A DNA stretch of 64,000 nt, from NCBI RefSeq assembly GCF_947487605.1, contig NZ_CANKXK010000007.1, positions 62,001-126,000 of the forward strand. The letters run 5' to 3'. Made by a program: the position numbers and the translations under genes. This document shows, one piece after another, positions 31,019-53,400 of this stretch (positions within the stretch are counted from its first letter, which is position 1; each line of letters begins with the position of its first letter). Source of the DNA: an uncultured Algibacter sp. Lineage in GTDB: Bacteria > Bacteroidota > Bacteroidia > Flavobacteriales > Flavobacteriaceae. A model generated the notes under the pieces. It did no database searches. It was given only the letters and a program-made list of their open reading frames with translations, and had not been told where the DNA came from.

Positions 31019-32419
31019 ATGATAAAGCATCAATATGCAATCTTAATAATAGCAATATTTTGGTTTAGTGGTCTTTCAGCACAAACCAGAAACCTTCCTA
31101 ATATTGTATTTTATATCACAGACGACCAAAGTCAGTTGGATTGTTCGGTGTATGGCAATGATATTATAAAAACGCCCAATACAGCGCAATTAGCAAAAGA
31201 TGGATTAGTGTTTGAAAATGCTTTCATCGCTTCACCTGCTTGTGCACCAAGTAGAGCAGCTTTGCTTACTGGATTGATGCCTTCAAGAAATGGTGCAGAA
31301 TCAAATCATAGTTATCCCAAAAAAGGCACTCAAATTTTAATTAAAAATTTACAAGAAAGTGGGTATGATGTTCTAAGCTTTGGGAAAATAGCCCATGAAA
31401 AAATGGGGGAATATATAGGCTTTGATTATTATAGTGAAGATCCAACAAATTTGGCAAATCATGTGACTGAGTATTTTCAAAATAACACAACAAAAAAACC
31501 GATTTGCTTATTGGTTGGAGATCGTCGTCCGCATGTACCATGGACTACTGAAAAAACCTATAATTCTGAAGCATTAGACTTGCCTCCTTATTTTATAGAT
31601 ACCAAAGAAACACGAAGACTTTGGAACCAGTATTATTCTGATATTACTGGAGCAGATGCCGAAATGGGCAAAATATACCAATTGGCAAAAGAAAAGTTTG
31701 GCGATAATTTTATATTCATTTATTCTGCTGACCATGGCGGGCAATGGCCTTTTGGGAAATGGAATTTATACGATGCAGGAACCAAAGTGCCTATGCTTAT
31801 GGTTTGGCCAAAGCACATAAAACCAAATACGAGAACTGATGCTATGGTAAGTTGGATAGATATATTTCCAACTTTGTTAGATATTGTGGATGCAGAATTA
31901 CCAGTCAATATTGATGGTAAATCTTTTAAAAAGAGCTTGCAAAAACCGAATACTTCACATCGAAAATACATTTACACAACCCATAGTGGTGATAAAAAAA
32001 TGAATGTATATCCTATTAGAAGTGTAAGGAATAAAAAGTACAAGTTCATCTTAAATCTATATCCAGAGAACTATCATTCTAATCATTCCGATATTTTAAG
32101 AAAAATACATGCAGGCGCTTATTGGGATTCTTGGGATGAAACGGCTAAAACAGATAAGCGTGCTGCCGATATTGTGCATAAATACTATGTGCGTCCTGCG
32201 GAAGAATTCTACGATATAGAAAACGATCCCTATGAACAAGTGAATTTAATTGATTCACCAAAAGGTGAAAAAGCATTAAACAAGATGCGTCTGCTGTTAA
32301 AAGATTGGATGATAGTGCAAAATGACAGTAAGGCTTTATTTGAAAAGCCATATCCCATTACAGGCAAGACGCCGCATGAAATTGTAGTAAAAAATAAAAA
32401 CAAACAGACTAAATATTAA
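31019..32419 (+). CDS. Sulfatase, S1 family
   Basis: A 466-residue exported sulfatase (signal peptide ending LSAQT). Cys75 in ACAPSRAALLTG is the residue converted to formylglycine by the maturation enzyme. The metal-binding aspartates are in FYITDDQSQLD, and FIYSADHGGQWPF supplies the later Asp-His pair. It should remove sulfate esters from a polysaccharide, in the periplasm or at the surface. It is the first gene after a 322-bp regulatory gap, followed by a GH43-like gene at 45 bp. Exact S1 subfamily and substrate are not decidable by eye. Confidence 0.93.
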   Translation: MIKHQYAILIIAIFWFSGLSAQTRNLPNIVFYITDDQSQLDCSVYGNDIIKTPNTAQLAKDGLVFENAFIASPACAPSRAALLTGLMPSRNGAESNHSYPKKGTQILIKNLQESGYDVLSFGKIAHEKMGEYIGFDYYSEDPTNLANHVTEYFQNNTTKKPICLLVGDRRPHVPWTTEKTYNSEALDLPPYFIDTKETRRLWNQYYSDITGADAEMGKIYQLAKEKFGDNFIFIYSADHGGQWPFGKWNLYDAGTKVPMLMVWPKHIKPNTRTDAMVSWIDIFPTLLDIVDAELPVNIDGKSFKKSLQKPNTSHRKYIYTTHSGDKKMNVYPIRSVRNKKYKFILNLYPENYHSNHSDILRKIHAGAYWDSWDETAKTDKRAADIVHKYYVRPAEEFYDIENDPYEQVNLIDSPKGEKALNKMRLLLKDWMIVQNDSKALFEKPYPITGKTPHEIVVKNKNKQTKY

Positions 32420-32464
32420 GGAAACACCTTAAGTTTTCCTTTTCAACCAAGAAAATTTTATGAG

Positions 32465-33598
32465 ATGAAGCAATATAACTATAACGATCTAAAACGTGTG
32501 ATAAAAAAAATAGCAATACCCTTATTTTCTGTTTTTATTATTAGCAGCTGCAAGGGGCAGTCTAGTCAGTCAAATTTTTCGGAAACAAATGTTTCTGCAA
32601 CACCTTCACTACAAAAAAAGGTGGATCCTAAAACCATTATTACAGACTATCATCGTATTTCTTACGATTGGATGCGGGATACCTATGTAACCTATATAAA
32701 AGAAGATGGGTATTATTATTTAACAGGAACCACCAGAATACCTCATAAAGCGGCCTGTTGGGATTATAACGATGGCTTGTATTTATGGCGCTCTAAAGAC
32801 CTTAAAAAATGGGATTCCTTAGGGTTGGTATGGAGTTTTAAAAAAGATGCCACATGGCAAAATGAATTTAGGCCATTACCAAAAGGTAGAAGTGGTGATC
32901 TAAGTGAAGAAAAAGGCGTAGGACGACGCGCTGTTTGGGCGCCAGAGTTTCATTATATTAATGGCGATTATTATTTCACAACGTGCATGAACTGGCACGA
33001 ATACCTTGACAAAGAAAAAAACGGAAGAGTGTTTTTGCTAAAAAGTAAATCGGGTAAGCCTGAAGGGCCTTATATAGACCCCATAGGAAAACCACTTGCA
33101 AATCGTATTGATTCCTCCTTATTTCAAGATGATGATGGTACGGTGTATTTTGTATGGCAGGATGGAAAGATAGCCAAAATGAAAGACGATATGTCTGGTT
33201 TTGCAGAAGAACCAAGGGATGTGCTACAATCAAAGTATTCAGATAATCCCTATATTGAAGGTGCTTTTATTACAAAAAAAGAGGATAAATATTATTTAAT
33301 TCAAGCTGCTTGGATTAAAGAGAAACCCAATGGTAAACGCGGGTATTTTTCAAAAGGGAAGAAGATATCCTATGATTGCGTAGTGTCTATTTCAGATAAT
33401 ATTTATGGACCTTACGGTCAAAAATTCACCTCTGCACAACATGCAGGTCATAATAATATTTTTGAAGATAAAGATGGAAACTGGTGGGGCACGATGTTTG
33501 GTAATCCAAGGTCAGGGATTACACCTACCGTATATGCTAACCCAACTATTTATCCTTTAGAATGGACAGAAGACGGGAAATGTTTTCCTAAAAAGTAA
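32465..33598 (+). CDS. GH43-like glycosidase lipoprotein
   Basis: A 377-residue lipoprotein (lipobox ISSC, Cys29) with the five-bladed propeller pattern of clan GH-F/GH43. Likely catalytic residues are the base Asp72 in WMRDTYVTY, a middle Asp in FQDDDGTVYFVWQD and the acid Glu265 in PYIEGAF. GYYYLTGTT and GHNNIFEDKDGNWWGT are blade signatures. GH43 enzymes usually remove arabinose, xylose or galactose side chains. Neighbouring sulfatases at 45 and 24 bp suggest a sulfated substrate with side groups. GH117 or a related clan member is an alternative. Confidence 0.8.
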   Translation: MKQYNYNDLKRVIKKIAIPLFSVFIISSCKGQSSQSNFSETNVSATPSLQKKVDPKTIITDYHRISYDWMRDTYVTYIKEDGYYYLTGTTRIPHKAACWDYNDGLYLWRSKDLKKWDSLGLVWSFKKDATWQNEFRPLPKGRSGDLSEEKGVGRRAVWAPEFHYINGDYYFTTCMNWHEYLDKEKNGRVFLLKSKSGKPEGPYIDPIGKPLANRIDSSLFQDDDGTVYFVWQDGKIAKMKDDMSGFAEEPRDVLQSKYSDNPYIEGAFITKKEDKYYLIQAAWIKEKPNGKRGYFSKGKKISYDCVVSISDNIYGPYGQKFTSAQHAGHNNIFEDKDGNWWGTMFGNPRSGITPTVYANPTIYPLEWTEDGKCFPKK

Positions 33599-33622
33599 TT
33601 GTAATTAATTTAAAAATTCAAA

Positions 33623-35095
33623 ATGAATAAATCACTTTATATACTTGCCTTGTTTTTAACGACTATATCGTGCAAGGCGCAACAGCAAGATTCTAAATCA
33701 AATAATACGGATAAACCCAATATTGTTTTTATACTGGCAGATGATTGTACGCATTGGGATATAGGTGCTTATGGAAGTAAAGATGCCATTACCCCAAATA
33801 TTGATAAATTGGCAAACGAGGGTGTTAAATTTAACCGTTGTTATCAGGCGGCACCTATGTGTTCACCTACAAGGCATAATATCTATACGGGGCTTTATCC
33901 TGTAAAGTCAGGAGCTTATCCTAATCATGCGTTTGCTAAAGAGGGCACAAAGAGTGTCGTACATTATTTAGAACCTTTGGGGTATCGCGTTGCCTTATCA
34001 GGTAAAAGACATATAAATCCTAAAGAAAGCTTTCCGTTTGAATATTTAGATGAGGAAAAAAACATAAACTTTAATAATGTTGAAAAATTCTTAGGAGAAG
34101 TAAAGTCTTCTAAAGAGCCTTTTGCTCTGATGCTTTGTTCTAACGAACCTCATGGACCTTGGAATAAAGGGGATGCTTCTAAATATAATCCAAACAAGAT
34201 TACTTTACCGCCACATTATGTAGATAATATAGAAACAAGGAAAGCGTATTGTAGTTATTTAGCAGAAATCAATTATTTGGATGATCAGGTTGGTAAAACC
34301 ATGGATTTATTAAAAAAGTACAACTTTGATGATAATACCCTTGTGGTTTTTGCAAGTGAACAAGGAAACAGTTTCCCGTTTGCTAAGTGGACCACTTATG
34401 AAGCTGGTGTAAAATCGGCATTAATTGCGCACATGCCAAGTAAGATTAAAGGTGGTAAGGAATCTGATGCTATTGTTGAATATACAGATTTAGTACCCAC
34501 ATTTATTGAAATGGCAGGAGGAGAACCTATAGCAACTTTAGATGGAAAAAGCTTAGTTCCCATTTTTAAAAATCCTAAAAAGGATAATAAAGATTACGCC
34601 TATAGTTTACAAACCACAAGAGGTATTATTGCTGGGGCAGACTATTACGCAATAAGATCAGTTGTTGGTAAGGATTATAGATATATTTGGAATATAACTC
34701 CTGAAGCCGAGTTTTTAAATGTAGTAAACAATGCAGATACTAATGGAAAAAAATGGTTCAGGTCTTGGGAAGAAGCTGCTAAAACAGATAAAAGAGCAGA
34801 AGAGTTACTTTACAAATACAAAAAGCGTCCCAAAGAAGAATTATATCATGTTAAAAATGACAAATGGTGTATAGCTAATCTTGCTGAAGACCCTAAATAT
34901 GCTGAAGTTAAAAATGAATTACGAACCGAGTTATTGGCTTGGATGGAAGCCTGTGGCGATGAAGGGCAAGCTACAGAAATGGATGCTTTGAATCATAAAT
35001 CTTCAACATTAAAAAAAGGAAAAGGAAAGAAAAATAAAGGAGATAAAAAATCCAAGAAAAAAGGAAAGAAAGGGAAAAAGAAAAAATCAGAATAA
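33623..35095 (+). CDS. Sulfatase, S1 family, with lysine-rich tail
   Basis: A 490-residue lipoprotein sulfatase (ISCKAQ lipobox). Cys80 in PMCSPTRHNIYTG is the formylglycine site, with Thr where Ser or Ala is usual. FILADDCTHWDIGAYGS holds the metal ligands. VVFASEQGNSFPFAKWTTYEAG is a variant of the usual DHG segment, with SEQG in place of the usual DHG (split: VVFASEQG, KWTTYEAG). The last 27 residues (464-490) are almost only lysine, glycine and serine, a strongly basic tail after the folded domain. The next sulfatase gene begins 5 bp after the stop. Confidence 0.9.
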   Translation: MNKSLYILALFLTTISCKAQQQDSKSNNTDKPNIVFILADDCTHWDIGAYGSKDAITPNIDKLANEGVKFNRCYQAAPMCSPTRHNIYTGLYPVKSGAYPNHAFAKEGTKSVVHYLEPLGYRVALSGKRHINPKESFPFEYLDEEKNINFNNVEKFLGEVKSSKEPFALMLCSNEPHGPWNKGDASKYNPNKITLPPHYVDNIETRKAYCSYLAEINYLDDQVGKTMDLLKKYNFDDNTLVVFASEQGNSFPFAKWTTYEAGVKSALIAHMPSKIKGGKESDAIVEYTDLVPTFIEMAGGEPIATLDGKSLVPIFKNPKKDNKDYAYSLQTTRGIIAGADYYAIRSVVGKDYRYIWNITPEAEFLNVVNNADTNGKKWFRSWEEAAKTDKRAEELLYKYKKRPKEELYHVKNDKWCIANLAEDPKYAEVKNELRTELLAWMEACGDEGQATEMDALNHKSSTLKKGKGKKNKGDKKSKKKGKKGKKKKSE

Positions 35096-35100
35096 GTTAT

Positions 35101-36747
35101 ATGAAGTTATCCTTTAAATCTGTTTTAGTCATATTCTTAGTAACATTAATAAGCTCTTGTGGCGTTTCGCAAAATGAAAAAAAGTCAGTTGCAGAACGAC
35201 CTAATATCATTTTAATCATGTCTGATGATATGGGCTATTCTGATTTGGGTTGCTATGGTGGCGATATCAATACACCAAACCTTGACGCATTGGCTAACAA
35301 CGGACTTCGGTTTACACAATTTTATAATGCTGCCCGTTGTTGTCCAAGTCGCGCCTCATTAATTACAGGCTTGTATCCGCATCAAACGGGGATTGGTTAT
35401 ATGACCAATTCTCCAAAAAAGCTTACCGATCAGGATTTAGGTCTGCCAGCGTATCAGGGGCGTTTACATAAAAACAATGTTACCATTGCGGAAGTATTAC
35501 AAAAAAGTGGTTATAGTACTTTAATGACAGGTAAATGGCATTTGGGTTTTACTAAAGATAATGCGCCCTTAGAAAGAGGATTCGATAAATTTTATGGTTT
35601 AATAGCTGGAGCGAGCAACTTTTTTAAACCAGAAGTTCCAAGAGGTATTACGTATATGAATGAAGCTGTTACTATTACAGATGAAGATTATTACACCACA
35701 GATGCTTTTACAAATTATGCTATCGATTTTATTGATGAATCTCAAAATGAAGATTCTAAAAAACCATTTTTTCTCTATTTAGCATATACTGCACCTCATT
35801 GGCCATTACATGCACCACAAGAAGATGTAGAAAAATATAAAGGAAAATACATGAAAGGTTGGGAGCAAATGCGAGAAGAACGCTTTGCAAAAATGAAAAC
35901 CATGGGATTAATAGATGAAGATTGGAAACTGTCTCCGGATGATTTTAAACCTTGGGATGCTCTTAGTAATGAAAAGAAAATCGAAATGGATTTACGCAGA
36001 GCTATTTATTCTGCTATGGTAGATAGAATGGATCAAAATATAGGGAAACTGATAAAAAATTTAGAAAAAAAGAAGATCCTCGATAATACCATTATTATCT
36101 TTTTAAACGATAATGGCGCCTGTGCAGAAGGTGGGGATTTTGGTGCAGGACCTTCAGAACAATTGGAAACTAAAGAAGGCTATTTTTTATCCTACGGAAA
36201 ATATTGGGCAAATGCCTCAAACACTCCATATAGAGAATACAAACATTGGGTACACGAAGGGGGTATTAGTACACCATTTATTGTGCATTGGCCTAAAGGA
36301 ATAGCAAAAGAAGATCAAGGTAAAATTATTAACGAACATGCTTTTTTACCAGATGTAATGAGCACACTTGTTGATTTAGGACAAGCCGAATACCCGAAAC
36401 AATTTAAAGGTAATGACATTCCGCCTATGGTTGGGAAAAGCTTAAAGCCTTTATTTTCTGATGCAGATGCATCCATACATAATGAGCCTATTTTTTGGGA
36501 ACACGAAGGGAATAAGGCTGTTCGATTAGGAGATTACAAATTAGTCTCTAAATGGTCTAAAGCACACGAAGTACAATGGGAATTGTATGATATAAAAGCA
36601 GACAGAACAGAAACTAATAATTTGGCGTCTCAAATGCCTGAAAAAGTAGAGACGATGCATGAATTGTATGCAGATTGGGCAAAAAGTAATAAGGTAATGC
36701 CTTGGGCAGATATCAAAAAACGAATTAAAGAAAAAAGAAAATCATAA
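35101..36747 (+). CDS. Arylsulfatase-type sulfatase, S1 family
   Basis: A 548-residue lipoprotein (lipobox ISSC) closest to arylsulfatase A-like enzymes. Cys80 of ARCCPSRASLITG is the formylglycine precursor. LIMSDDMGYSDLGCYGG supplies the metal aspartates, TGKWHLGF the lysine/histidine of the active site and IIFLNDNGACAEGG the late Asp-Asn. THWP-like segment YTAPHWPLHAP is also present. It cleaves sulfate esters, probably endo- or exo- on a polysaccharide. The C-terminus is short and basic (KKRIKEKRKS). It lies 5 bp after the preceding sulfatase, so translational coupling is likely. Confidence 0.94.
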   Translation: MKLSFKSVLVIFLVTLISSCGVSQNEKKSVAERPNIILIMSDDMGYSDLGCYGGDINTPNLDALANNGLRFTQFYNAARCCPSRASLITGLYPHQTGIGYMTNSPKKLTDQDLGLPAYQGRLHKNNVTIAEVLQKSGYSTLMTGKWHLGFTKDNAPLERGFDKFYGLIAGASNFFKPEVPRGITYMNEAVTITDEDYYTTDAFTNYAIDFIDESQNEDSKKPFFLYLAYTAPHWPLHAPQEDVEKYKGKYMKGWEQMREERFAKMKTMGLIDEDWKLSPDDFKPWDALSNEKKIEMDLRRAIYSAMVDRMDQNIGKLIKNLEKKKILDNTIIIFLNDNGACAEGGDFGAGPSEQLETKEGYFLSYGKYWANASNTPYREYKHWVHEGGISTPFIVHWPKGIAKEDQGKIINEHAFLPDVMSTLVDLGQAEYPKQFKGNDIPPMVGKSLKPLFSDADASIHNEPIFWEHEGNKAVRLGDYKLVSKWSKAHEVQWELYDIKADRTETNNLASQMPEKVETMHELYADWAKSNKVMPWADIKKRIKEKRKS

Positions 36748-36775: not shown

Positions 36776-37999
36776 ATGAAAATAAGAACTCAATATATAG
36801 TAGCACTTCTTTGTCTTGTTTTGTTTTCACAAAGCTGTACTTCGCAAAAAAAACGTGATTATGCAACACCGATAAAAGGGCAATGGTCTGTTGAAAAGAT
36901 TAATGAATGGTATAGTGCGCAACCTTGGCTGGTTGGGGCTAATTATTACCCAGCAACTGCCATTAACCAAATAGATATGTGGCAAGCCTCTACTTGGGAT
37001 CCAGAGCGTATCGATTTAGAATTATCTTGGGCAGCAGATATGGGGATGAATACTATGAGAGTGTATTTACACGATTTGGTTTGGGGTGATGATGAGCAGG
37101 GGCTATATCAGAGAATGGATGAATTTTTAAGCATTTGTCAAAAATATCATATTCGCCCTTGGTTTGTATTTTTTGATGACTGCCACTATCCAAATCCTAA
37201 ATTAGGAAAACAACCTTTACCTGTAAAAGGGTTTCATAATTCAGGTTGGTTAAACTCTCCTGCAAGACCTTTAGCGGTTAAATATGCGAATGGAAAAGCA
37301 ACTGCCGAAGAAGTAGCACACTTGAAAGGGTATGTACAAAAAACCATTGCCCATTTTAAAGATGATAAGCGTGTATTAATGTGGGAGCTATACAACGAAC
37401 CTGGGAGAGGCAATGGCGATGGCGGTACTATGGAAGGTGAAGTAGTGAAAGCAAAAATTGGAGATAAGTCGAAAAAATTGGTATATGATTCTTGGGTATG
37501 GGCAAGAGAAATCAATCCCTCTCAACCAATAACATCCACCAGTGCGGGCAGCGTAGGAAAAACGAATATTCAAATCAATCAAGTAAACTCAGATTTGCAT
37601 TCAATCCATTCTTATCAAAACGCAGAAGAACTTGAAGTTGCTATCAAAAATTATCAGGCAGATGGTCGTCCAGTAGTAGTCAGCGAGTGGTTGGGAAGAG
37701 ATCAGGGGAGCATTGTAAGCGAGTGCTTGCCAGTTATGAAAAAACTTCAATCAGGTGCTATAAACTGGGGGTTTGTGTCTGGTAAGAGTGGTACTATTTG
37801 GAATTGGAAAAGCCGATTGGAACCAAATTCAAAAAAGAAAAGAAACTTAAAGCAAGAACGTTTAGATGGCAATGTGGTGAAGCCTGGAGAAGCTTTTCCT
37901 GAACCAGAAGTTTGGTTTCATGATTTGTTAAGAATGGATGGCACACCTTATAATGCAGAAGAGATTGAAGTTTTTAAGAAACTAACAAATACAAAATAA
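36776..37999 (+). CDS. Clan GH-A glycoside hydrolase lipoprotein (GH5-like)
   Basis: A 407-residue lipoprotein (lipobox QSC, Cys21) folded as a TIM barrel. The probable acid/base is Glu208 in LMWELYNEPGRG and the nucleophile Glu304 in VVVSEWLGR, the expected strand-4 and strand-7 positions of clan GH-A. MGMNTMRVYLHDLVW and RPWFVFFDD are barrel strands. It resembles GH5-like cellulase/xylanase-annotated proteins of Bacteroidetes; I cannot place it in a subfamily. Co-transcription with sulfatases suggests action on the same polymer. Confidence 0.8.
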   Translation: MKIRTQYIVALLCLVLFSQSCTSQKKRDYATPIKGQWSVEKINEWYSAQPWLVGANYYPATAINQIDMWQASTWDPERIDLELSWAADMGMNTMRVYLHDLVWGDDEQGLYQRMDEFLSICQKYHIRPWFVFFDDCHYPNPKLGKQPLPVKGFHNSGWLNSPARPLAVKYANGKATAEEVAHLKGYVQKTIAHFKDDKRVLMWELYNEPGRGNGDGGTMEGEVVKAKIGDKSKKLVYDSWVWAREINPSQPITSTSAGSVGKTNIQINQVNSDLHSIHSYQNAEELEVAIKNYQADGRPVVVSEWLGRDQGSIVSECLPVMKKLQSGAINWGFVSGKSGTIWNWKSRLEPNSKKKRNLKQERLDGNVVKPGEAFPEPEVWFHDLLRMDGTPYNAEEIEVFKKLTNTK

Positions 38000-38046: not shown

Positions 38047-39534
38047 TTGAAGAAAACAATAAAATATATAAATGTAATTCTAAGTGCATTGCTAATTAAT
38101 GTCATCTTTATTTCATGTTCTTCAGAAACTGGATTAACCGAATCTTCTGAAACTGAAAAGCCTTCTGAGTCTAAAGATGTTATTTCTAATTCGCAAGAGG
38201 CAAAGGTATTTACAGATGTTACTATAAATTCTTATCCAGAAAATTCAGCCATTACTAATGTTGACTATAGAAGAGGTTTGGCTGCCCAAGATATTGACGA
38301 ACCAAGAATTGCAAGAACTATGGCTGTTGGTGGTAATATTGTAATGATTCCTATTGGTCTTCAAAAGAACTCAATGTCACCTGACTTTCCTACTAAAACA
38401 ACAAATAGCCCTAGTCAAAGTATTATAGATGCATTAAATGTCATAGCAACACAAAGCGAAGGTAAGGTTGATTTGTATGTGCAGATATCAGGAACTCCTA
38501 AAATATATGATACTGAAGATGTTGAAAAACCAAATAATGGCAACTTTTATCCTTTGCCAACATCATCAGATAGGGATGCATGTGTTGAAAACATAGCTAG
38601 TTGGATGTACGCCATTGAACAGCAAGTCAACATGCCAATAACGTGGTTAGGTACACAAGAACCAGGGCATACTTTAGGTGAAGACTCTAATGCACCAGGT
38701 AATAAAAAGGAGTATAATTTGGATAAGTTTATCAGTTATTGGAATCAAATTGAAGATGAGCTAAAAACTTTAAATGCAAATGCCAAATTAGGAGGCATTC
38801 AATTAAACTCTGGAAATGATGGGTTATATGACTATACCATTAATAAAATAGAATCTGAAAATTTACAATTAGATGTCATTTGTTACCAATTATACGGCGT
38901 AGGAGGATTAACTGATGGTAGTATTGGTGATGCCGTAGCTGCCACAAATAGTTACAGTGGAAATGTTAAAATGGTAGCACATAGAACACTTTGGTTAAAG
39001 GAAATGCGAAGAGCTTTAGGTATTGACCCACAAGATGTTGATGCCTTAACTGAAGAAGGGTTTAATACCTCAGAGGGGATGATTTATTTTCTTCGAACAG
39101 AAAAGCAATACCAAGCTCATGCAAGTGGTGTAGAGGGCTATTGTGTTGGTAAACCTTCAGAAGATTTAGGAAGTATGGTTTACGATGTATTGGGCTGGTT
39201 ACAGAATACACCTAAAAAATTACGCGAACTTACAGATTTACCCAATGGTGTAGATGGTTTTGTTTTAGCTATAGATAAAAAATACATGGCAGCATTGTAC
39301 AATACTAGCGATGTTGATTATAATATTACATTAAATCTAAATACAGATCAATATGGAGAAGCCCCTGAACTTAACTCAACTTTATTTAGTGGTACTTCAA
39401 AAATTGAAAACGGATCTGGCATACTATATGATTATGCATCACAAGCTATTAAAGAGATTGAATTAGAGAAAAACGATGTCATTCTAATAGAGTTACTAAA
39501 AGACGGTACCAGTTTATCAATAACAAAATTTTAG
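38047..39534 (+). CDS. Lipoprotein, putative TIM-barrel hydrolase of unrecognised family
   Basis: It starts at TTG, supported by the lipoprotein signal that follows at once (INVILSALLINVIFISCSS, Cys24); no ATG comes before residue 92. I do not recognise the family. From about residue 70 the pattern looks like an eight-stranded barrel: NIVMIPIGLQ, KVDLYVQISGTP, then ITWLGTQEPGHTLGED with Glu205 placed like a clan GH-A acid/base, AKLGGIQLN and LDVICYQLYG. A C-terminal beta domain follows (MAALYNTSDVDYNITLNLN to ILIELL), as in GH30/39/79/86. A second catalytic Glu is not certain. It sits between a GH5-like gene and a sulfatase, 5 bp from the latter. Confidence 0.65.
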   Translation: MKKTIKYINVILSALLINVIFISCSSETGLTESSETEKPSESKDVISNSQEAKVFTDVTINSYPENSAITNVDYRRGLAAQDIDEPRIARTMAVGGNIVMIPIGLQKNSMSPDFPTKTTNSPSQSIIDALNVIATQSEGKVDLYVQISGTPKIYDTEDVEKPNNGNFYPLPTSSDRDACVENIASWMYAIEQQVNMPITWLGTQEPGHTLGEDSNAPGNKKEYNLDKFISYWNQIEDELKTLNANAKLGGIQLNSGNDGLYDYTINKIESENLQLDVICYQLYGVGGLTDGSIGDAVAATNSYSGNVKMVAHRTLWLKEMRRALGIDPQDVDALTEEGFNTSEGMIYFLRTEKQYQAHASGVEGYCVGKPSEDLGSMVYDVLGWLQNTPKKLRELTDLPNGVDGFVLAIDKKYMAALYNTSDVDYNITLNLNTDQYGEAPELNSTLFSGTSKIENGSGILYDYASQAIKEIELEKNDVILIELLKDGTSLSITKF

Positions 39535-39539
39535 ACAAA

Positions 39540-40997
39540 ATGATTAAAATAAAACCCTTCTTACTTTTTTTAATAGTGACATTATTTGCGCTCAAAGTAC
39601 AGGCTCAAAAAAAAGAAAATGTGCTAATGATAGTTATAGACGATTTAAATGACTATCCGCTTGCGCCAAAGTTTAATAAGGTAATCACGCCTAATTTAGA
39701 TAAGTTTACATCAGAATCATTAAACTTTTCTCAAGCCTATTGTCCAGCCCCCATATGTAACCCATCTCGGGCAGCTGTACTTAGTGGTGTAGCACCAAAT
39801 AGAAGTGGTGTCTACAATAATAAAGATGCTTGGGAAACCAGTGCGCCAGTAAATAATAGTTTGCCCATGCCAATGGCTTTCAAACAAAATGGCTATACAA
39901 CATTGTGGTCTGGTAAATTATGGCACGGACATACTACGCCTAAAAAAGCGATGCTGGATATTTGGTTTGATGAATATATAAAACATGAAAACTTTGCACC
40001 TTACCCTGTAAATCCAGGGATTCCTGTAGATATTCTTAGAAAAAAAGATGGAAATACCAATTTTGAAGCTATGGATTTGCCTGATGAAGAGTGGCAAGAT
40101 ACTCGAACGGCAAACGAAACGATTGAACGGTTAAATACAGATTATGATAAGCCTTTCTTTATGGTTTGTGGTTTTGTAAGACCTCATAATCCATGGACTG
40201 CTCCTGAGCGTTTTTTCGATATGTATAATTTGGATGATATCATTCGTCCAAACATGAAAGCTGATGATTGGGACGATATCCCAGCAATTGCTGAAAAAAT
40301 AAGATCACACGGTTTAGATTTTGATAAATTGGTAGCCTCAGGGAAATGGGAAGAATTGATTCGGTCTTATCTGGCATGCATATCGTTTGTAGATTGGAAT
40401 TTGGGTAGAGTTTTAGATGCTTTAGAAGATAGCAAATATGCCGAAAACACAACCGTTATTATATGGTCAGATCATGGTTTTAATGTTGGAGAAAAAACAC
40501 ACGTTGGTAAACAAGCACTTTGGGAACAAACTACCCGAACATTGTTAAAAATAAAAACATCTAAATTAAAGCATCAAGGAGAAACAAGTGATAAGACTGT
40601 AAGTTTGTTAGACCTTTATCCTACCATGGTCGATTTGTTTAAGTTAAAAGGTGTGCCAGAAAATCAGTTGGATGGAAAAAGTATTGCGCCTCTAATTAAA
40701 TGTCCAGATAAAAAATGGTCTCAGCCCGTGGTGACTACTTATTTAAAGGGGAATCATGCGGTTAGAGATAATCAATTCAGGTACATCAAATACCGTGATG
40801 AAAGTGAAGAGTTGTATGACTTAAATAATGATCCTGATGAGTTTAATAATCTGGCTAACGATGCTAAGTATGCTTCCATTAAGGCGGCATTAAAAAAGCA
40901 TATTCCAACAACCAATGCCGAACCTTCAGGACAAAATGCGAAACCAAAAGGTAAAAAAAAGAAAGGTGAAAAGCGAGGTGTTAAAAAGAAGAATTAA
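39540..40997 (+). CDS. Sulfatase, S1 family (iduronate-2-sulfatase-like), basic tail
   Basis: A 485-residue exported sulfatase with signal peptide ending KVQAQ. Cys73 in PICNPSRAAVLSG is the formylglycine site. MIVIDDLNDYPLAP and VIIWSDHGFNVGEKTHVGK are typical of the iduronate-2-sulfatase-like branch, and CGFVRPHNPWTAPE holds another conserved His. The C-terminal 18 residues (468-485) are a lysine-rich tail. It follows the unrecognised lipoprotein gene by 5 bp. Its substrate is unknown, but this branch often removes 2-O-sulfate. Confidence 0.93.
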   Translation: MIKIKPFLLFLIVTLFALKVQAQKKENVLMIVIDDLNDYPLAPKFNKVITPNLDKFTSESLNFSQAYCPAPICNPSRAAVLSGVAPNRSGVYNNKDAWETSAPVNNSLPMPMAFKQNGYTTLWSGKLWHGHTTPKKAMLDIWFDEYIKHENFAPYPVNPGIPVDILRKKDGNTNFEAMDLPDEEWQDTRTANETIERLNTDYDKPFFMVCGFVRPHNPWTAPERFFDMYNLDDIIRPNMKADDWDDIPAIAEKIRSHGLDFDKLVASGKWEELIRSYLACISFVDWNLGRVLDALEDSKYAENTTVIIWSDHGFNVGEKTHVGKQALWEQTTRTLLKIKTSKLKHQGETSDKTVSLLDLYPTMVDLFKLKGVPENQLDGKSIAPLIKCPDKKWSQPVVTTYLKGNHAVRDNQFRYIKYRDESEELYDLNNDPDEFNNLANDAKYASIKAALKKHIPTTNAEPSGQNAKPKGKKKKGEKRGVKKKN

Positions 40998-41043
40998 TAG
41001 TAGAATAGCCTTTGTAAAAGGTTTAAAAATGAATTATACAATT

Positions 41044-42555
41044 ATGAAAAATTATCTTTTAATGTTATGTATGGTGTTGCCTTTGTTGGGCTGTAAGGCT
41101 CAAGTTGATACACCAAATGCAAAACCTAATGTTCTGCTTATTATGGTAGATGATTTAAAACCTGCTATCAATGCTTTTGGAGATAAACATGCCTTAACCC
41201 CAAACTTAGATAAGTTAACAAAAAAAGGAATGCGTTTTGACAATGCTTATGCAAATCAAGCCGTTTGTGCGCCTTCTCGTTTCACACTTATGTTAGGGTC
41301 TCATGGTACCAATACAGGACTGTATAGTTTAGGAAATAAGTTAAGAGAAAAGATTCCTAATGCAGTAACTATGCCTCAATATTTTGCGAAGCATGGTTAT
41401 AGAACCGAATCTTTAGGGAAAATATTTCATATCGGTCATGGAAATCCTGGGGATGATCAATCGTTTAGTGTGCCACATTTTAAAGATAAAGTGGTTGAAT
41501 ATGTGTTGCCTGAAAGTACAGATGGCGGACAGCTTACTATAGAAGAAGCTTATTTTCAAAATAAAGCAATATTAGATGATAATGGCGCTAAATTACCTAA
41601 GGGAGCTGCTTATGAAGCTCCTGAGGTTGAAGATGAAGCCTATGCCGATGGTAGAGTAGCGAATGAAACGATTAAAAGATTAAGAGAAGCAAAAGAAAGA
41701 GGAACGCCTTTTTTCATAGCATCTGGTTATGCCAGACCACATTTGCCTTTTTGTGCGCCAAAAAAGTATTGGGATATGTACGACCCGAATATGCTTCCTG
41801 TTACCAATATTAACCAAATGCCTAAAGGCGCCCCAGAAGGTGCAGGTAAGAATATTTTAAGTGAAATTGGGAATTACAAACCAACAACCGAAGCATTGTT
41901 GCATACCGAGGAATACAAAAGAAAATTAGTACATGGTTATTATGCTTCTACCAGTTATGTTGATGCTCAAATAGGTAAGGTAATTGATGAACTGGATCGT
42001 TTAGATTTAACCAAAAACACCATTATTGTACTTTGGGGAGATCATGGTTTTCATTTAGGCGAATTAGGCATTTGGACCAAACATGTCAATTATGAAATTG
42101 CAACCCACATACCAATTGTTGTTGTTGCAGAAGGGGTTACAAAACCAAATTCATCAACCCAACAATTTGCTGAAACTGTTGATGTTTTTCCAACGCTTTG
42201 TGAATTAGCAGGATTGCCCCAACCTAAAGAAAATGTAGTACAGCCTATTGATGGTGTTAGTTTAGTACCGGTGCTAAAAGATTCTGAAGCACGTGTTAGA
42301 GATTACGCGTATCACTATTATCCTAAAAAACAATTAGGGATTGGTAGAGCGATTAGAACAAACCAATACCGAATGGTAGAGTGGACAAAGAAAGGAAAAG
42401 AACCTGTATATGAGCTTTATGATTATACAGATGGTGATTTAGAAACGGTTAACATCGCTGAACAAAATCCTGAGATAATAGAAAAACTAAGCAGTATTTT
42501 GGCGCAATACCCAAAGCCTAAGCCTAAGTTTGGTAAGAAAAAAAATAATAAATAA
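41044..42555 (+). CDS. Sulfatase, S1 family (iduronate-2-sulfatase-like)
   Basis: Start chosen at 41044 because it gives a lipoprotein signal (KNYLLMLCMVLPLLGCKAQ). The ATG at 41029 is a close alternative. The open frame back to 40915 overlaps the previous gene's tail and codes for a lysine-rich leader that would hide the signal. Cys75 in VCAPSRFTLMLG is the formylglycine site. LLIMVDDLKPAINAFGD, SGYARPHLPFCAPKKYWDMY and VLWGDHGFHLGELGIWTKH are the metal- and substrate-binding segments of the iduronate-2-sulfatase-like branch. The tail KPKPKFGKKKNNK is basic. Last gene of the rightward sulfatase run. Confidence 0.92.
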   Translation: MKNYLLMLCMVLPLLGCKAQVDTPNAKPNVLLIMVDDLKPAINAFGDKHALTPNLDKLTKKGMRFDNAYANQAVCAPSRFTLMLGSHGTNTGLYSLGNKLREKIPNAVTMPQYFAKHGYRTESLGKIFHIGHGNPGDDQSFSVPHFKDKVVEYVLPESTDGGQLTIEEAYFQNKAILDDNGAKLPKGAAYEAPEVEDEAYADGRVANETIKRLREAKERGTPFFIASGYARPHLPFCAPKKYWDMYDPNMLPVTNINQMPKGAPEGAGKNILSEIGNYKPTTEALLHTEEYKRKLVHGYYASTSYVDAQIGKVIDELDRLDLTKNTIIVLWGDHGFHLGELGIWTKHVNYEIATHIPIVVVAEGVTKPNSSTQQFAETVDVFPTLCELAGLPQPKENVVQPIDGVSLVPVLKDSEARVRDYAYHYYPKKQLGIGRAIRTNQYRMVEWTKKGKEPVYELYDYTDGDLETVNIAEQNPEIIEKLSSILAQYPKPKPKFGKKKNNK

Positions 42556-42572
42556 TATAAAATATTATTGAT

Positions 42573-42612
42573 AAAAATAAGTCCAGTTAATTAATTAACT
42601 GGACTTATTTTT
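42573..42612. terminator. Bidirectional terminator, perfect 40-bp palindrome
   Basis: A perfect palindrome centred at 42592/42593, with core AAGTCCAGTTAA and its complement, lies between two convergent sulfatase genes. It has A tracts on one side and T tracts on the other, so it can stop transcription both ways. It includes the stop codon of the leftward sulfatase (42591-42593). Confidence 0.88.
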
Positions 42613-44018
42613 TGATACCATTTCTGTAACTGTTCAGTATATGTTTTTACCTTACTAGGGTGTTTTTTCGCGACATTATTATTTTCGCCTACATCCTTTT
42701 TTAGGTTGTATAATTGTGGGTTTGTGCCATCATAATCGCAGTAAAATTTCCATGCTTTATCTCTAATAGCTAAATCAGGTAGGTTGCTATGACCTTGATA
42801 TGATTTTCTGTCAGGTGGTCTGCTAAAATAAATTGGTTTACAATTTTTTGAGTTTGATTTACCTAATAATACCTTACTAAAATCTTGTCCGTCAATGCTG
42901 TTTTGTTGCCATTTTTTACCAGCAAAAGCATTTGCCAAAGCAAGTAGTGAAGGTTTAATGTCGATAGCCGAAAACACTGTTTTTGTGTTTCGGGTTCCTT
43001 GTTTTGTTTCATCTATTAATGTTGGTGCCCAAACAATTAATGGAGAACGCACACCGCCCTCATAAAGCATTGCTTTTCCGCCTTTGAGGCCTCCTGTAGA
43101 GCCTCCTAGGCCATTTTCTTTTTCAGCAGGACAACCATTATCTGAAGCTATTAAAATAATGGTATTGCCTTTTAAATATGATGAATTCTGAATATAGTCA
43201 AATAGGGGTTTGAATTGTAAATCCATTTCTTCTAAAACGGTATTGTATCTGTTTGCTCTTTTATTCCAGTTTTTAATGGATGAAAACCAAGGCCTATGAA
43301 TATCGTCGGGCCAGATGTTAACAAAAAATGGCGTTTCGGATTTTTCAGAAGTTTTGATAAAATCGATGGCGGCATTTGTAAAGCCTCCTGTAATTTTAGA
43401 ACGTTGCATCCAAGTTATTGGACCTCCTAAAATTTCTGCGCTTTCCCAAAGTTTACCATCAATAATTTTATCAGGATTTTGAGAATCTGGGTGTTGCGTT
43501 AAAGGGAGTAATTTTGGCCCCAAACCTTCAAAGTTTGTTAAAGACTTATCAAAGCCATAGGTAGTAATTTCTGGTGCTTCTGTTACGTCTCGTTGACCGC
43601 CCATGTGCCATTTTCCAAAGTGTCCTGTCGCATATCCTAATTTTTTTAATTCACTCGCTATGGTCGAAACATTGGGGTCTAACCAATCTGACATACCTCG
43701 TTTTTTGTTGCTTTTCTTATTGTTTAAAAACGAAGTTATTCGATGTCTTTGCGGGTAATTCCCAGTAGTTAAAGCGACTCGTGATGGCGAACAAATAGGC
43801 GAGTTTACATAAAATTGGTCAAAACAAATGCCTTGAGAAGCTAAGGCATCTATATGAGGTGTTTTTGCGTCGTTATTTCCGTAGCAAGATAAATCTCCCC
43901 AACCCATATCATCAATAAAAATGACAACAATATTAGGTGGTTTCGCTTGCTGAGCATATGCACTTGCACTGATGAAAAAAATAAATATAAAATGTTTAAT
44001 GGCGTTCCAGAGGTTCAT
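42591..44018 (-). CDS. Sulfatase, S1 family
   Basis: A 475-residue exported sulfatase with signal peptide ending SAYAQQ. Cys76 in PICSPSRVALTTG is the formylglycine site. IFIDDMGWGDLSCYGN carries metal aspartates, GHFGKWHMGGQ the active-site Lys and His, and LIASDNGCPAEKENG the Asp-Asn pair. It differs from the five rightward sulfatases in being part of the leftward unit sensor - hydrolase - sulfatase, 8 bp after the hydrolase gene. Its expression should therefore follow that of the sensor itself. Substrate unknown. Confidence 0.94.
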   Translation of the reverse strand: MNLWNAIKHFIFIFFISASAYAQQAKPPNIVVIFIDDMGWGDLSCYGNNDAKTPHIDALASQGICFDQFYVNSPICSPSRVALTTGNYPQRHRITSFLNNKKSNKKRGMSDWLDPNVSTIASELKKLGYATGHFGKWHMGGQRDVTEAPEITTYGFDKSLTNFEGLGPKLLPLTQHPDSQNPDKIIDGKLWESAEILGGPITWMQRSKITGGFTNAAIDFIKTSEKSETPFFVNIWPDDIHRPWFSSIKNWNKRANRYNTVLEEMDLQFKPLFDYIQNSSYLKGNTIILIASDNGCPAEKENGLGGSTGGLKGGKAMLYEGGVRSPLIVWAPTLIDETKQGTRNTKTVFSAIDIKPSLLALANAFAGKKWQQNSIDGQDFSKVLLGKSNSKNCKPIYFSRPPDRKSYQGHSNLPDLAIRDKAWKFYCDYDGTNPQLYNLKKDVGENNNVAKKHPSKVKTYTEQLQKWYQKISPVN

Positions 44019-44026
44019 AGTTGTTA

Positions 44027-46060
44027 TTATTTATCAGCAAAAAGTTTTACTACTGCTTGAGATTCTTTTCCTGTGTCTTGCATACAAAATGATAGCATAA
44101 CTCTTCTTGTTTTGTTAGATTGCCATTTTAATGGCGCATAGGTATTGATTGGTAAAGACCAAAGTTGATTGTTGCCTATTTTTGAACCCATATTAATAGA
44201 CTCGTCTGCTATTGGGTTTTTATCACCCCAAGGAAATGCTGTAGCACGATTTTTATTAAAAGTGCCATTATGTAAGATTATAGATTTAATTGATTTTCCG
44301 TCAATCATATAATCAATTTTCATTCCTAATAGGGCGTCTTTGGTTTTTTGAATATCTAAGTTGTAAGCATTGTATTTTACTTGAATAGTATTAGGAACAT
44401 TGTCTAAGGTAACTCCACAAAGCCCTTTTCCTAAATCTTCTTTTATGCCCATTCTTGCTGTCCAAGTACGCCAATCAAAATCGCCATAATCCCCTGAAAT
44501 ATCGCCTTCTTCTGTGCGACCTGTCCATTGCCAAGAACGAATGTAATCCGCATTAAAAGGCGTTGTTAAGTCTGTCTGCTCAGTTTTTGGTTTAAACTCC
44601 AAATACAAAATTCCTGGACTTGGAATGTCTAATTCTAAAATAGTTGATGTTGCCGTTAGTTTCTCTTTTACCAAAGCATCTGTGGATGATTTTTCTTGAT
44701 AACTGGAATGATTGGCATCAATTCTGTACAAATACAAATCACCTTGTTTTAGGCTCAGTCCTTCTAAAGAAAGTGTAATGGGTGTACTTTTCTTTTTATT
44801 GGTATCATTCCATAGCAACACTCCAGTACCGTGTTCATCTGATGAAGCAAAACCATGGAGTCCATTCGGTTTGTTTTTTATGACCAGCGATTTTCTTTCG
44901 GTAGGCATTTTTCCGTACAAATAAAAGGCATGATAAATAGGACGCTTTTTTAATTTAGTGTCAATTAAACCGCCATAAATCATGTGTTCGTGGTGGAGGT
45001 AGCGATTCCAAGTTACAAAGGGTATGTCAGTCTGTTCTATAAAATAGTTGAGGTCTGATAAAAACTTAACAGCTCCTGTAGTTTCTTCTCTATTATAATG
45101 AAACGAATCTGATTTTCCCACCTCCTTTCCTGTAGCATAATGCTCATATTCAGTAAAAACAAGAGGTACCGTTTGAAAATCATCACTCAGATTACGTCTC
45201 GTAGTTTCAACAATCCACTTTACTCTGTCTGCAGGTCTTTGCTTGTTAGGCTGTTTTTTATTGCGTTTCACATTACTAAACCTTCCATAAGAATGGATGG
45301 AAAAATAATCAAGAGGTAAGTTTTTTGTCTTTACATTTTGAATAAACTCACTGCTGAATTCTTGGATATACTTTTCTGAATTTGCCATAGCAGGTCCAAC
45401 AATTAAAGCGTCTGGGTCTGCTAATCTAATACTTGGTGCAACATGCTCGTAAATCGTATTATATGTTTCTATTTGGTTGCCATTATTGGTGTTTAAAAAC
45501 TTGTTATTTTGGGGTTCGTTCCATACTTCCCAAAGTAATGGATGCATATTTTTATGCAATTTTACGTATTTACCAATACTTTTGCTGTACGCTTTGATGT
45601 TGTTAGGAATTTCTCTTTTTGATTCTGGAAATTTATTTGTTTTATCATTTCTGAAAACCAAAGGGGTTTGATATAAAGTTAGTATTGGTAAAGTGTTGTT
45701 TTTGTGTAACTCGTTGATATAATTTATGTTATCTTTATTTTTTTGGATTTCATTTTTAGAAATGATATCTCCATTTTGATTGACTAAGGCTCGAAAACTT
45801 CTGATTTTTAAATCTGAAAGCGGTTTCATCGCTTTTTTTACACCTAACTTTTTTAATCCTTTTATTTTTGGTACACCTTCTTGAAAAAGGCTGGCTTTTC
45901 CTTTTAATAAGGGGTAATAAGCAGGTTGAGACACATCAACATTTATGGTGGCAACCGCATTTGGTGTTGCGTTATTATTGACTACAGGGGTAACCGTTTT
46001 TTGTGCGCAAGAAGTGGCGAAAATCAATAAAATAATGATGTAAAAAGTGATGTTTTTCAT
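44027..46060 (-). CDS. GH39-like clan GH-A glycosidase lipoprotein
   Basis: Start chosen at 46060, which gives the lipoprotein signal ITFYIIILLIFATSCAQ (Cys18). The longer frame from 46156 would overlap the sensor gene and bury the signal. The 677-residue protein has a TIM barrel with acid/base Glu182 in LLWEVWNEPQN and nucleophile Glu304 in PLVFTEYEHY, plus DYFSIHSYGRF. The arrangement resembles GH39 and relatives (xylosidases, iduronidases). A beta domain follows (about 400-500), then an extra C-terminal beta-rich module of about 150 residues beginning near WQWTGRTEEG. Sits 4 bp after the sensor gene's stop, so co-expressed with it. Confidence 0.82.
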   Translation of the reverse strand: MKNITFYIIILLIFATSCAQKTVTPVVNNNATPNAVATINVDVSQPAYYPLLKGKASLFQEGVPKIKGLKKLGVKKAMKPLSDLKIRSFRALVNQNGDIISKNEIQKNKDNINYINELHKNNTLPILTLYQTPLVFRNDKTNKFPESKREIPNNIKAYSKSIGKYVKLHKNMHPLLWEVWNEPQNNKFLNTNNGNQIETYNTIYEHVAPSIRLADPDALIVGPAMANSEKYIQEFSSEFIQNVKTKNLPLDYFSIHSYGRFSNVKRNKKQPNKQRPADRVKWIVETTRRNLSDDFQTVPLVFTEYEHYATGKEVGKSDSFHYNREETTGAVKFLSDLNYFIEQTDIPFVTWNRYLHHEHMIYGGLIDTKLKKRPIYHAFYLYGKMPTERKSLVIKNKPNGLHGFASSDEHGTGVLLWNDTNKKKSTPITLSLEGLSLKQGDLYLYRIDANHSSYQEKSSTDALVKEKLTATSTILELDIPSPGILYLEFKPKTEQTDLTTPFNADYIRSWQWTGRTEEGDISGDYGDFDWRTWTARMGIKEDLGKGLCGVTLDNVPNTIQVKYNAYNLDIQKTKDALLGMKIDYMIDGKSIKSIILHNGTFNKNRATAFPWGDKNPIADESINMGSKIGNNQLWSLPINTYAPLKWQSNKTRRVMLSFCMQDTGKESQAVVKLFADK

Positions 46061-46064
46061 AAGG

Positions 46065-49000
46065 CTATTTTTCAACAGATTTAGATTCTTCAATATAATT
46101 ACTGGGTGATATATTAAACTCTTTTTTAAAGACTTTACTAAAATAATTAGGGTCACTATACCCCACCATATAGCTTACTTCTGAAACTGATTTACCGCTT
46201 TTTAGTAAAACAGATGCTTCTTGTAAACGTATGCGTTTTAAAAACTCAGAAGCGTTGGTTTTTGCTATTTTTTTAATTTTTAAATGCAACAACGCTCTAC
46301 TAATCCCCATTTCTTTAGAAAGTTTTTCTATAGAAAAAGAAGCATTCATAAAATTATCTTTTACAATTTCGCTAAGCTTACGCATAAATTCTTTGTCATG
46401 GTTGTTTTCAGGTATAATAATCTCTTCATTTTTATAGATACTCAAAAAGCGTTCCTCAAAATTCTTTCTCGCTCGTATTAAGTTTCGTATAATTAAATCG
46501 AGCTCGTTTAAGTTAAAGGGTTTTTCTAAATAGGCATTGGCACCTAGTTTTAAACTTTGTACTTTATACAACTCCTTACTATTAGCCGTTAAAAGTAATA
46601 ATGGAATGTGTTTGAATTCAGCACTAGATTTTAGTTGTTTACACAGTTCTAAGCCATTCATTTTTGGCATTTTTATGTCTGATATGATAATGTCTGGATA
46701 TCTTCTGTTTATCTTTTCTAGGGCATCAAGACCATTTATTGCTTTGGTAACATTAAATTTTGAACTAAAATGCGAGCTTAAAAAACTCATGAGCTCTTTA
46801 TTATCTTCTACAATAAGCATATTTGGATTTGTGGTTTTGCTAATAGAGGGTTCAATATGATTATCTTCCGTTTCTAATATCAAGTTGGGTTTAAATGATA
46901 GGGTTTTATTACCGTCTATAGTTTTAACACTTTTATCATTCATTTTTAAAACCAATGGTAGTTTTAAGGTAAACTGGCTGCCTTCATCTTCTTTGGATGT
47001 TACAGAAATTTGGCCTTCTAAAAAATTAACCAAACTTTTTACTAATGCTAAACCAATACCACTATTTTCAGAACTTTTTTCCTTGGCTTCATTATAAAAA
47101 GGCATGAATATTTTGCTAGCTTTTTCTTGAGACATACCAACACCTGTGTCAGTTAAAATAAATGTAATGGTGCTTCTTTTTTTACTATCTAATTTCGATT
47201 CAATTTGGCTTTCAAATCCTATGGTTCCTCCGTTTGGTGTGTTTTTAATAGCATTAGAAATTAGGTTGGTAATTATCATTTCTATTTTTTCAGCATCAAA
47301 ATAACACAAGTATTCTTTGATGTTTGATTGAAATTTATGATGGATGTTTTTCTTTTCAAATAATGGATTAAAAGCTTCAAAAGTTTCTTTTATAAACAGG
47401 ATGATGTCACCGCGTCTAAATTCAATATCGGCATGATGGGTTTCTATTTTTCTGAAGTGCATCAATTGAGACACCAAATGGTGCAGTTTGTTAGCACTTT
47501 TTTTAATACTAAACAGCTCTTTGGCAGTTTCTTGGTTGTAATTTCTGTACTTAACAAATTCTTCAACAGAGGCTATAATAAGCGTAAGTGGGGTTTTGAA
47601 CTCGTGGGAAATGTATGTAAAAAAATCTATTTTGTTTCTGTTTATTTCTTCAATATTGGCTTTTTCTAAATTGGCTATTTCTACCTTGTGTTTTTGTTGG
47701 TGTATAAAACGTAAAAATCTAGAATACATAAATACGGACAATATAATTAAGAGTGTATATAACAAATAGGCGGTTTTGGTTTGCCAAAAGGGTGGTAAAA
47801 TGGTTAAAGATATAGCACGTTCTGCACCATCATCTAAATTTTTAACCCTAAAAACATAATCGCCTGAGCCTATATTGGTATATGTGGCACTAGTTTTGTG
47901 CCCCACGTTATTATAGTTGGTTTCAAATCCCTCTAAAAAATAGGCGTAGTTGTTTTTGTCTAAGGTGTTGTAATTAATGGTATTGTAATCAAAAGTAATG
48001 ACATTTTGATTGTGTTTCAAGGTGATGTGGGATGTTTGGTTGATTTGTTTTGAGAGGGTAGCCGAACTTGACTGGCTAGGAATAATTTCTGAATTAAACA
48101 ATTTGAAGCTAGATATGATTAAAGGAGATTGTCCAGTTTTGGGCTTTATATTGTCAGGATGAAAATGTGTTAATCCTTTAACAGAACCAAAATAAATACC
48201 TCCGTTTTTGTCTTTAAATGATGATTTAAAGTTGAATTGATTGGCTACTAATCCATCACTTGTGGTAAAATTTGTGAAGTTGTTGTTGGTTATGTCTAAT
48301 TTAGAAAGCCCTTTATTGGTAGAACACCAAATATTACCGTTATTGTCTTCTACAATACTGTAAACTGTTTCGTTAGGTAATCCATCTTTGCTGGTCCAGT
48401 TTTTAAATTTATCGGTCGTCTTATTCCATTTAAGTAGCCCGCCTTCTAAAGTTCCAAACCAAATATTGCCATTGCTATCTAAGTGTCCATCAATAATTTT
48501 ATTGTTATTCATGCCTCCAAAAGTAGTTTCGATGGTGTAGTTTATTAAGGTGTCGTTTGCTGGATTGTAAACAAAGATTCCTGATGTTATAGTACAAAAC
48601 CATAACCTCTTTTGGGTGTCTTCTAAAATATCGTACACAAATTTTCTACTCAGTTCACTTTTATGGAATAAGTCAAATGTGTTTCTGCTGTAATCAAAAA
48701 CATTTAAACCCAAGTGTGTTCCAGCCCATAATTTTCCTGAGGAATCTTTAAATAAGGCATATACGTTATTATTGCTAATATGATGCTTTTTTCCTTTTGT
48801 GAATACTTCATTTTTTCCTGTTTTGGGGTTGTACCTGTTGAGTCCACCCTGAAAAGTGCCTATCCAAAACTGACCATCAGTGTCTTGTAGTAATGAATGT
48901 ATGTTGGTGCTACTTAGCTTTCCAAGTGTTTTATTTAAGTAACTAAATGTATTTGTTTTGGGATGGTATATAGATACGCCTCTATCTTCGGTAGCTACCC

Positions 49001-50078: not shown

Positions 50079-50230
50079 ATTATTACTTTTATGCATATAA
50101 AAATCCGTAATATGTAATCATTAAACAAAATTACAGATACTTTGGACAAAAATAGAGATTGTAATTTGATTATTAAATTATTTTAGCTCAATAACTAAAT
50201 CAATTCTAAACTAAATACAGGAAAATAATT
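50079..50230. promoter_or_regulatory. Divergent regulatory region, sensor and susC
   Basis: This 152-bp gap should hold the promoters of both the sensor operon and the SusC/SusD operon and the sensor's binding site. On the minus strand TAATTTTG (50133-50126) fits a -7 box for the sensor gene, but the nearest TTTG is 13 bp upstream rather than about 20. No convincing box is seen for susC, as expected for an activator-dependent promoter. Confidence 0.45.
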
Positions 50231-53389: not shown

Positions 53390-53400
53390 AACATTAAAAA

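Follow-up and report, generated by a model that had tools for sequence, protein, structure and literature searches.

The window, by which we mean the whole 64,000-nucleotide stretch of DNA that was analysed, contains a sulfatase-rich Sus locus in which we find an orphan exported lipoprotein, P0001, with weak but controlled sequence similarity to glycoside hydrolase family GH39. Our leading reading, to which we give about an even chance, is that P0001 is a divergent, GH39-like barrel of clan GH-A followed by a beta domain, and most likely a retaining glycoside hydrolase that acts on a sulfated polymer of mannose and xylose. According to this reading the lipoprotein would consist of a (beta/alpha)8 barrel and then a beta domain, with Glu205 on strand 4 serving as acid/base and the nucleophile being Glu336 (or Glu337), where strand 7 ends. 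It would cut the polymer, or its oligosaccharides, alongside the neighbouring sulfatases and the GH5, GH43 and GH39 proteins. P0001 may thus represent a novel type of cleaving enzyme, or else a barrel that has lost cutting and only binds. The gene and its neighbours are as follows:

28861-30696, + strand: GH5 protein, 13 of whose 15 PDB matches are endo-beta-mannanases or exo-beta-mannosidases
31019-36747, + strand: sulfatase, GH43 protein, sulfatase and sulfatase (Pfam scan, PDB sequences, motif check)
36776-37999, + strand: GH5-like exported protein, the upstream neighbour of P0001 (PF00150 at E 2.9e-4, below the Pfam cut-off)
38047-39534, + strand: P0001 (ORF with a TTG start, 495 amino acids)
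38047-38118, + strand: lipoprotein signal of P0001 with lipobox FISC and Cys24 (sequence, regular-expression check)
39540-40997, + strand: sulfatase with a CNPSR motif, 5 bp downstream of P0001 (Pfam scan, motif check)
40915-42555, + strand: sulfatase with a CAPSR motif, its true start probably inside the ORF (Pfam scan, motif check)
42591-46156, - strand: sulfatase and GH39 protein P0002 (Pfam scan, PDB sequences, motif check)
46065-50096, - strand: hybrid two-component regulator (Pfam scan)
50231-55008, + strand: SusC and SusD pair (Pfam scan)

We take P0001 to be a real gene because its codon usage fits its frame, its close neighbours are co-directional and its N-terminus carries a lipobox. 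Codon usage correlated with that of nine other locus genes at 0.88 in frame, compared with 0.31 and 0.28 in the other forward frames, confirming as coding the ORF that an earlier note on this DNA had described; GC at the three codon positions was 0.44/0.36/0.21. The GH5-like gene ends 47 bp upstream and the next sulfatase ORF begins 5 bp downstream, all on one strand, so the placement of P0001 in a sulfatase cluster also stands. The N-terminus, LKKTIKYINVILSALLINVIFISC, combines a hydrophobic stretch with the lipobox, the Cys of which is residue 24, in agreement with the lipoprotein anchor proposed earlier. P0001 would presumably sit on the outer face of the cell.

The locus (24935-55008) runs from a GH3 protein and a calcineurin-like phosphoesterase through the GH5 protein, a sulfatase, the GH43 protein, two sulfatases, the GH5-like protein and P0001 to two further sulfatases, and continues on the opposite strand with a sulfatase, P0002 and the hybrid regulator, before SusC and SusD. 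All six sulfatases carry the C-x-P-S/T-R motif. Upstream of the locus lie genes for a GH2 protein with mannosidase-type domains, a sodium:solute symporter, a PfkB kinase and an N-acylglucosamine-2-epimerase-type protein. The GH43 protein matched xylosidases, xylanases and other GH43 enzymes in the PDB, while P0002 (ORF 44027-46156, - strand) scored 52.8 bits against a Pfam GH39 cut-off of 26 and matched GH39 beta-xylosidases. Taken with the mannanase and mannosidase matches of the GH5 protein, these xylosidase-type matches make a sulfated polymer of mannose and xylose the likely substrate of the locus. The earlier note had suggested that P0001 might be a new backbone-cleaving enzyme for that substrate; the locus already has the GH5 protein, which may cut the backbone, so P0001 need not fill this role and is at most a candidate for it.

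In the parts of the two sources available to us, marine beta-mannan loci are built around GH26 and GH130 and count as non-sulfated (PMC6298971), and the beta-mannan locus of Muricauda sp. MAR_2010_75 has GH26 and GH5 (PMC9860051). Compared with the loci as portrayed there, the P0001 locus is similar in its SusC/SusD pair and its mannan-directed enzymes, including a GH5 protein like that of Muricauda. In contrast, it has six sulfatases, a GH43 and a GH39 protein, and no match to GH26 or GH130 among the proteins scanned.

Some details of the neighbouring genes were also noted. The 83 bp by which the sulfatase ORF 40915-42555 overlaps the previous gene are due only to the use of the first ATG, and a start approximately 38-43 codons further in would yield a lipoprotein-like signal. 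The coding sequence of P0002 is probably 44027-46060, with a start just after the regulator stop that gives the lipoprotein-like signal MKNITFYIIILLIFATSC; P0002 is also rare, with matches at E<=1e-5 in only 3 of 198 other genomes, all of them partial. The GH5-like protein had no match among PDB sequences at E 0.001, and its own genome encodes two more homologues with 41-43% identity. Among ORFs of 150 amino acids or more, the first after SusD encodes a laminin-G-like protein (55190-56164) with a Por secretion tail, likely a type 9-secreted glycan binder. Further on, at 58096-60359, genes of the APH-type phosphotransferase and ADP-ribosylglycohydrolase types overlap.

The earlier note had been unable to place P0001 in a named family, and our searches agree with it. 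Against Pfam the protein gave only two sub-threshold matches, to unrelated families (E 0.12 and 0.17), and neither NCBIfam, PHROGs and PDB sequences for the whole protein nor PDB sequences and Pfam for pieces of it gave a meaningful match. PF01229 (GH39) was not matched by the whole protein with E allowed up to 1, nor by four pieces with the limit raised to 10, and PF00150 (GH5) was not matched in the Pfam scan. Assignment as a plain GH5 or plain GH39 enzyme was dropped, as the family match is absent; assignment as a sulfatase was dropped as well, as P0001 lacks the C-x-P/A-x-R formylglycine motif of S1 sulfatases.

Searches for homologues gave a similar picture. Overlapping draws of 299, 395, 2, 395, 80 and 167 genomes from its own phylum, Bacteroidota, searched at E 0.001 (the 299- and 167-genome sets) or E 0.01 (the others), returned the gene itself and seven partial matches. 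One of these (L059) covers residues 4-65 in a 75-amino-acid frame. The other six were judged from their translations to be chance matches: two look like FG-GAP/VCBS-repeat proteins (L002 and L061), and the rest we take to be a LytTR-type regulator (L003), an OsmC-like protein (L039), a TolC-like efflux protein (L040) and a transglutaminase-like protein (L060). Pattern scans, which are sensitive to close relatives only, gave 129 matches in genome contigs and 22 in viral contigs for P0001, and 58 and 35, respectively, for the artificial alignment A1, with no relative among any of them; tblastn against plasmids gave no match. In the genome that holds a 63% relative of the neighbouring GH5-like protein (G155), no P0001-like gene was found by tblastn in stretches of 20 kb and 19 kb, nor among the inspected ORFs of the 20 kb stretch; near that GH5 relative, at 2907-13703 of L034, several proteins that we take from their translations to be amidohydrolase-like are encoded in tandem. 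At the cut-offs applied, none of P0001, the GH5-like protein and P0002 was matched in the one other species of the genus that was searched (G034), and the locus may therefore be accessory.

With no homologues available, the fold of P0001 was tested by controlled profile comparison. The parts of the protein that bear on its fold and active site are these:

38641-38667, + strand: TWLGTQEPG (residues 199-207), with the Glu205 codon at 38659-38661 as the likely GH39 acid/base place and Gln204 at the clan GH-A Asn (alignments; other register in some)
38716-38913, + strand: residues 224-289, the top match to the GH39 profile, with predicted strands 5 and 6 and Gln281 replacing the His of H-x-Y (HMMER 10.5 bits; HHalign 34.9)
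38962-38997, + strand: NVKMVAHRTLWL (residues 306-317), which belongs to helix 6 in the preferred alignment and forms an acid-less strand 7 in the other (model, HHalign, stretch test)
39052-39057, + strand: Glu336-Glu337, candidate nucleophile (multiple alignments, model, direct stretch test)
39217-39531, + strand: predicted C-terminal beta domain (weak model)

With a GH39 profile built from 11 proteins (P0001 excluded, P0002 included), HMMER gave P0001 10.5 bits. Of 1000 shuffles, 698 were reported at all and the strongest reached 5.5, while the highest-scoring other protein not used to build the profile, a GH5, reached 6.9. An earlier and looser profile of 15 sequences gave 9.1 bits against 3.9 for the top of 300 shuffles; of the window decoys, GH3 (9.7) and GH5 (8.3) scored about as well as P0001 with this profile, and a sulfatase scored 5.7. 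For HHalign, 241 queries were assembled from window and neighbour-locus ORFs, reversals and 60 shuffles, and 237 were scored after omission of four longer than 1200 amino acids. Behind P0002 came GH5 proteins at 39.98 and 36.89, two overlapping versions of P0001 at 35.18 and 34.87, and GH5 proteins at 34.62, 33.78 and 30.72; the first entry after these that was neither P0001 nor GH5 was a GH3 protein at 28.4. Four of the five high-ranking GH5 proteins belong to one GH5 group and are thus not independent, and a further GH5 (L036_-0_2653) was absent from the best 20 of the 237. Judged by these profiles, P0001 ranks with clan GH-A-type proteins, above all else among the best 20 HHalign entries.

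GH39 and GH5 could also be compared as the nearer family. Against a GH5 control profile of 29 rows, a few of which are ORFs of other families, P0001 ranked 100 of 149. In Smith-Waterman comparisons with 60 shuffles each, z exceeded 3 for 5 of 18 GH39-like proteins and for 1 of 13 GH5 proteins, the latter out of register; the top pairwise score (84, z 8.1, with L073) placed the TQE of P0001 in a shifted register. Of the two profiles tested, the main domain of P0001 therefore appears nearest to GH39, by a similarity that is weak but controlled and that lies around predicted strands 4 to 6. The GH5-like neighbour is like P0001 in its clan GH-A signal in HHalign, its export, its strand and its locus, but it has an intact NEP and matches in 37 of 397 genomes (its own included), whereas P0001 has no GH5 profile match.

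The controlled ranking lends support to the clan GH-A-like barrel that the earlier note had suspected, and the weak model described below is compatible with it. We consider it improbable that P0001 adopts some other secreted fold and that its likeness to GH39 is accidental. The absolute HHalign figures are low (probability 18.65% and E 0.0013 for one comparison, over residues 226-323) and so leave room for this view, as do the unusable model made without GH39 rows, the strands 1 and 2 left unformed in the model made with them, and the large rmsd to PDB chains. However, P0001 stood apart from shuffled and reversed sequences as well as from real decoy proteins, and it sits in a sulfated-glycan locus.

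From the single sequence, AlphaFold gave an unusable model (pLDDT 31.9). When supplied with a 16-row GH39 alignment, with identities of 11-19% and rows picked for keeping Glu205 on NEP, it produced a weak model (pLDDT 50.1, pTM 0.52), the numbers of which were raised by 44 to give the residue positions cited here. This model has helix 3 at 173-193, strand 4 at 198-200, helix 4 at 225-242, strand 5 at 247-249, helix 5 at 258-271, strand 6 at 277-282, helix 6 at 303-323, strand 7 at 332-337 with Glu336 inside it, helix 7 at 342-355 and strand 8 at 363-367, followed by beta strands. The strand/helix repeat and C-terminal beta domain read earlier from the sequence thus reappear as an alternation followed by beta strands from about residue 391, although as a prediction from a weak model. 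When the alignment rows were split to free residues 285-345 of bias, the C-terminal pieces were misplaced.

The structure prediction and fold search suggested in the earlier note returned mostly clan GH-A barrels (GH39, GH79, GH86, GH30, GH51, GH44 and GH5) and some of GH13 type, from a weak, alignment-biased model and with large rmsd. The top Foldseek entries were a bacterial heparanase (GH79), GH86, a GH39-like enzyme, GH51 and GH30, with GH13-type amylases and a GH2-type glucuronidase lower among the best 50 (TM-scores 0.19-0.44, rmsd 9.4-20 A). VIA-align 2 placed GH39 beta-xylosidases at ranks 2-7 and 9; its best 50 entries had Z from 14.9 to 12.7 and rmsd of 3.7-7.2 A, and Z 8 was reached by 680 of 1000 chains. 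Because the input alignment was itself GH39, this result is partly circular and indicates compatibility only. Several of the clan GH-A families in the fold search have C-terminal beta domains, as would be expected if P0001 belonged to an existing CAZy family or subfamily that lies outside the searched libraries or is modelled there only through closer members. We think this unlikely, since neither the protein nor its pieces gave a meaningful match in those libraries; such membership would in any case overlap with both the hydrolase reading and the non-cutting one considered below.

Clan GH-A active sites usually have an Asn before the acid/base Glu and a His on strand 6. The earlier note had pointed to the Glu of TWLGTQEPG (Glu205) as lying at the acid/base place, and PITWLGTQEPG of P0001 does resemble PLLWEVWNEPQ of P0002. 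Local alignments put Glu205 on the NEP Glu with P0002 and L041 (2 of 18 GH39-like proteins), and with 4 of 13 GH5 proteins at noise scores, and in multiple alignments with P0002, L058, L075 and L041 it falls on the acid/base. In contrast, the register moves in larger sets, as a GTQE-like motif directly follows NEP in many GH39 proteins: when P0001 was aligned by MAFFT with ten GH39-like proteins, TQE moved onto that motif in several, and MAFFT alignments with single GH39-like sequences gave inconsistent registers. Glu205 is therefore a plausible acid/base on the strength of several of these alignments, and we accept the register in which it pairs with NEP.

In that register NEP becomes QEP and H-x-Y-G becomes Q-L-Y-G: Gln204 replaces the Asn, and Gln281 (in ICYQLYG) replaces the strand-6 His, both of which are seen in the aligned GH39-like rows. 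Across its 495 residues P0001 contains no Asn-Glu pair at all. If this register is accepted, P0001 shares with GH39 (PF01229; beta-xylosidases, P0002) a Glu at the acid/base place, besides a predicted C-terminal beta domain, but lacks the PF01229 match, the Asn and the His, and offers only a candidate nucleophile. We have accordingly not filed it under GH39, although it may work like a GH39 enzyme.

The GH39 acid/base and nucleophile Glu are numbered 162 and 279, 117 residues apart, in the part of the source consulted (PMC7242879); in P0001, Glu205 is 131 residues from Glu336 and 110 from Leu315. Several multiple alignments put Glu336 or Glu337 on the GH39 nucleophile, and HHalign pairs residues 302-323 with the stretch of P0002 that precedes the nucleophile strand. 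When the stretch that separates strands 6 and 8 was tested directly against 10 GH39-like sequences, with 500 shuffles, P0002 pointed to Glu337 (p=0.014 uncorrected, the only 1 of 10 at p<0.05) and L058 to Glu336 (p=0.052). Five xylosidase-type sequences pointed to Leu315, with TLW on TEW, and three to nothing, all at noise level (p >= 0.39). As between Glu336/337 and no nucleophile at all, these alignments lead us to lean towards Glu336/337.

The main alternative is a pseudoenzyme with the same barrel, in which Glu205 is kept and the nucleophile is lost, strand 7 being NVKMVAHRTLWL with Leu315 or Arg313 in its place; instead of cutting, such a protein would bind the sulfated glycan and keep it at the cell surface, or would help one of the enzymes encoded nearby. 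We regard this as somewhat unlikely, but there are several points in its favour. There is no Asp or Glu between residues 296 and 318, half of the GH39-like sequences in the stretch test pair the nucleophile with Leu315 (at noise level, as noted), and Gln204 and Gln281 are two further changes in the active site. On the other hand, HHalign, the alignment with P0002 and the weak, biased model all make the NVKMVAHRTLWL stretch helix 6, before the nucleophile strand. Moreover, surface glycan-binding proteins are usually encoded next to SusC/SusD. P0001 shares a lipoprotein signal with such proteins of Sus loci, but it ends 10.7 kb before SusC and its gene is thus not directly after SusD, which argues against a role as surface binder.

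Heparanase-2 is a heparan sulfate-binding protein of the GH79/clan GH-A fold. It provides a precedent for the loss of cutting: in the portion of the source available, the human protein keeps the acid-base Glu262, has Gly381 for the nucleophile and is termed a pseudoenzyme (PMC12406646). GH79 heparanases (5bwi, 9s8w and 5e8m) were among the top fold-search entries for the P0001 model; no sequence similarity of P0001 to GH79 heparanases or heparanase-2 was found, and heparanase-2 is an animal protein whereas P0001 is bacterial.

Coming back to P0001 as a GH39-like barrel, we tentatively suggest, with a little less than even confidence, that it founds a new clan GH-A family, marked by a QEP acid/base and the lack of a strand-6 His, that evolved in a locus for a sulfated xylomannan-like polymer. 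It would then be a hydrolase whose active site has changed or, as a bacterial equivalent of heparanase-2, a barrel that now serves to bind sulfated glycan. Those portions of the literature that our search covered held no uptake-locus study for a sulfated mannose/xylose polymer. If P0001 proves to be an enzyme, clan GH-A would gain a family, and a tool against such a polymer would become available. If it is instead a pseudoenzyme, the heparanase-2 pattern, with the acid/base kept and the nucleophile lost, would occur in a bacterial glycan-uptake locus.
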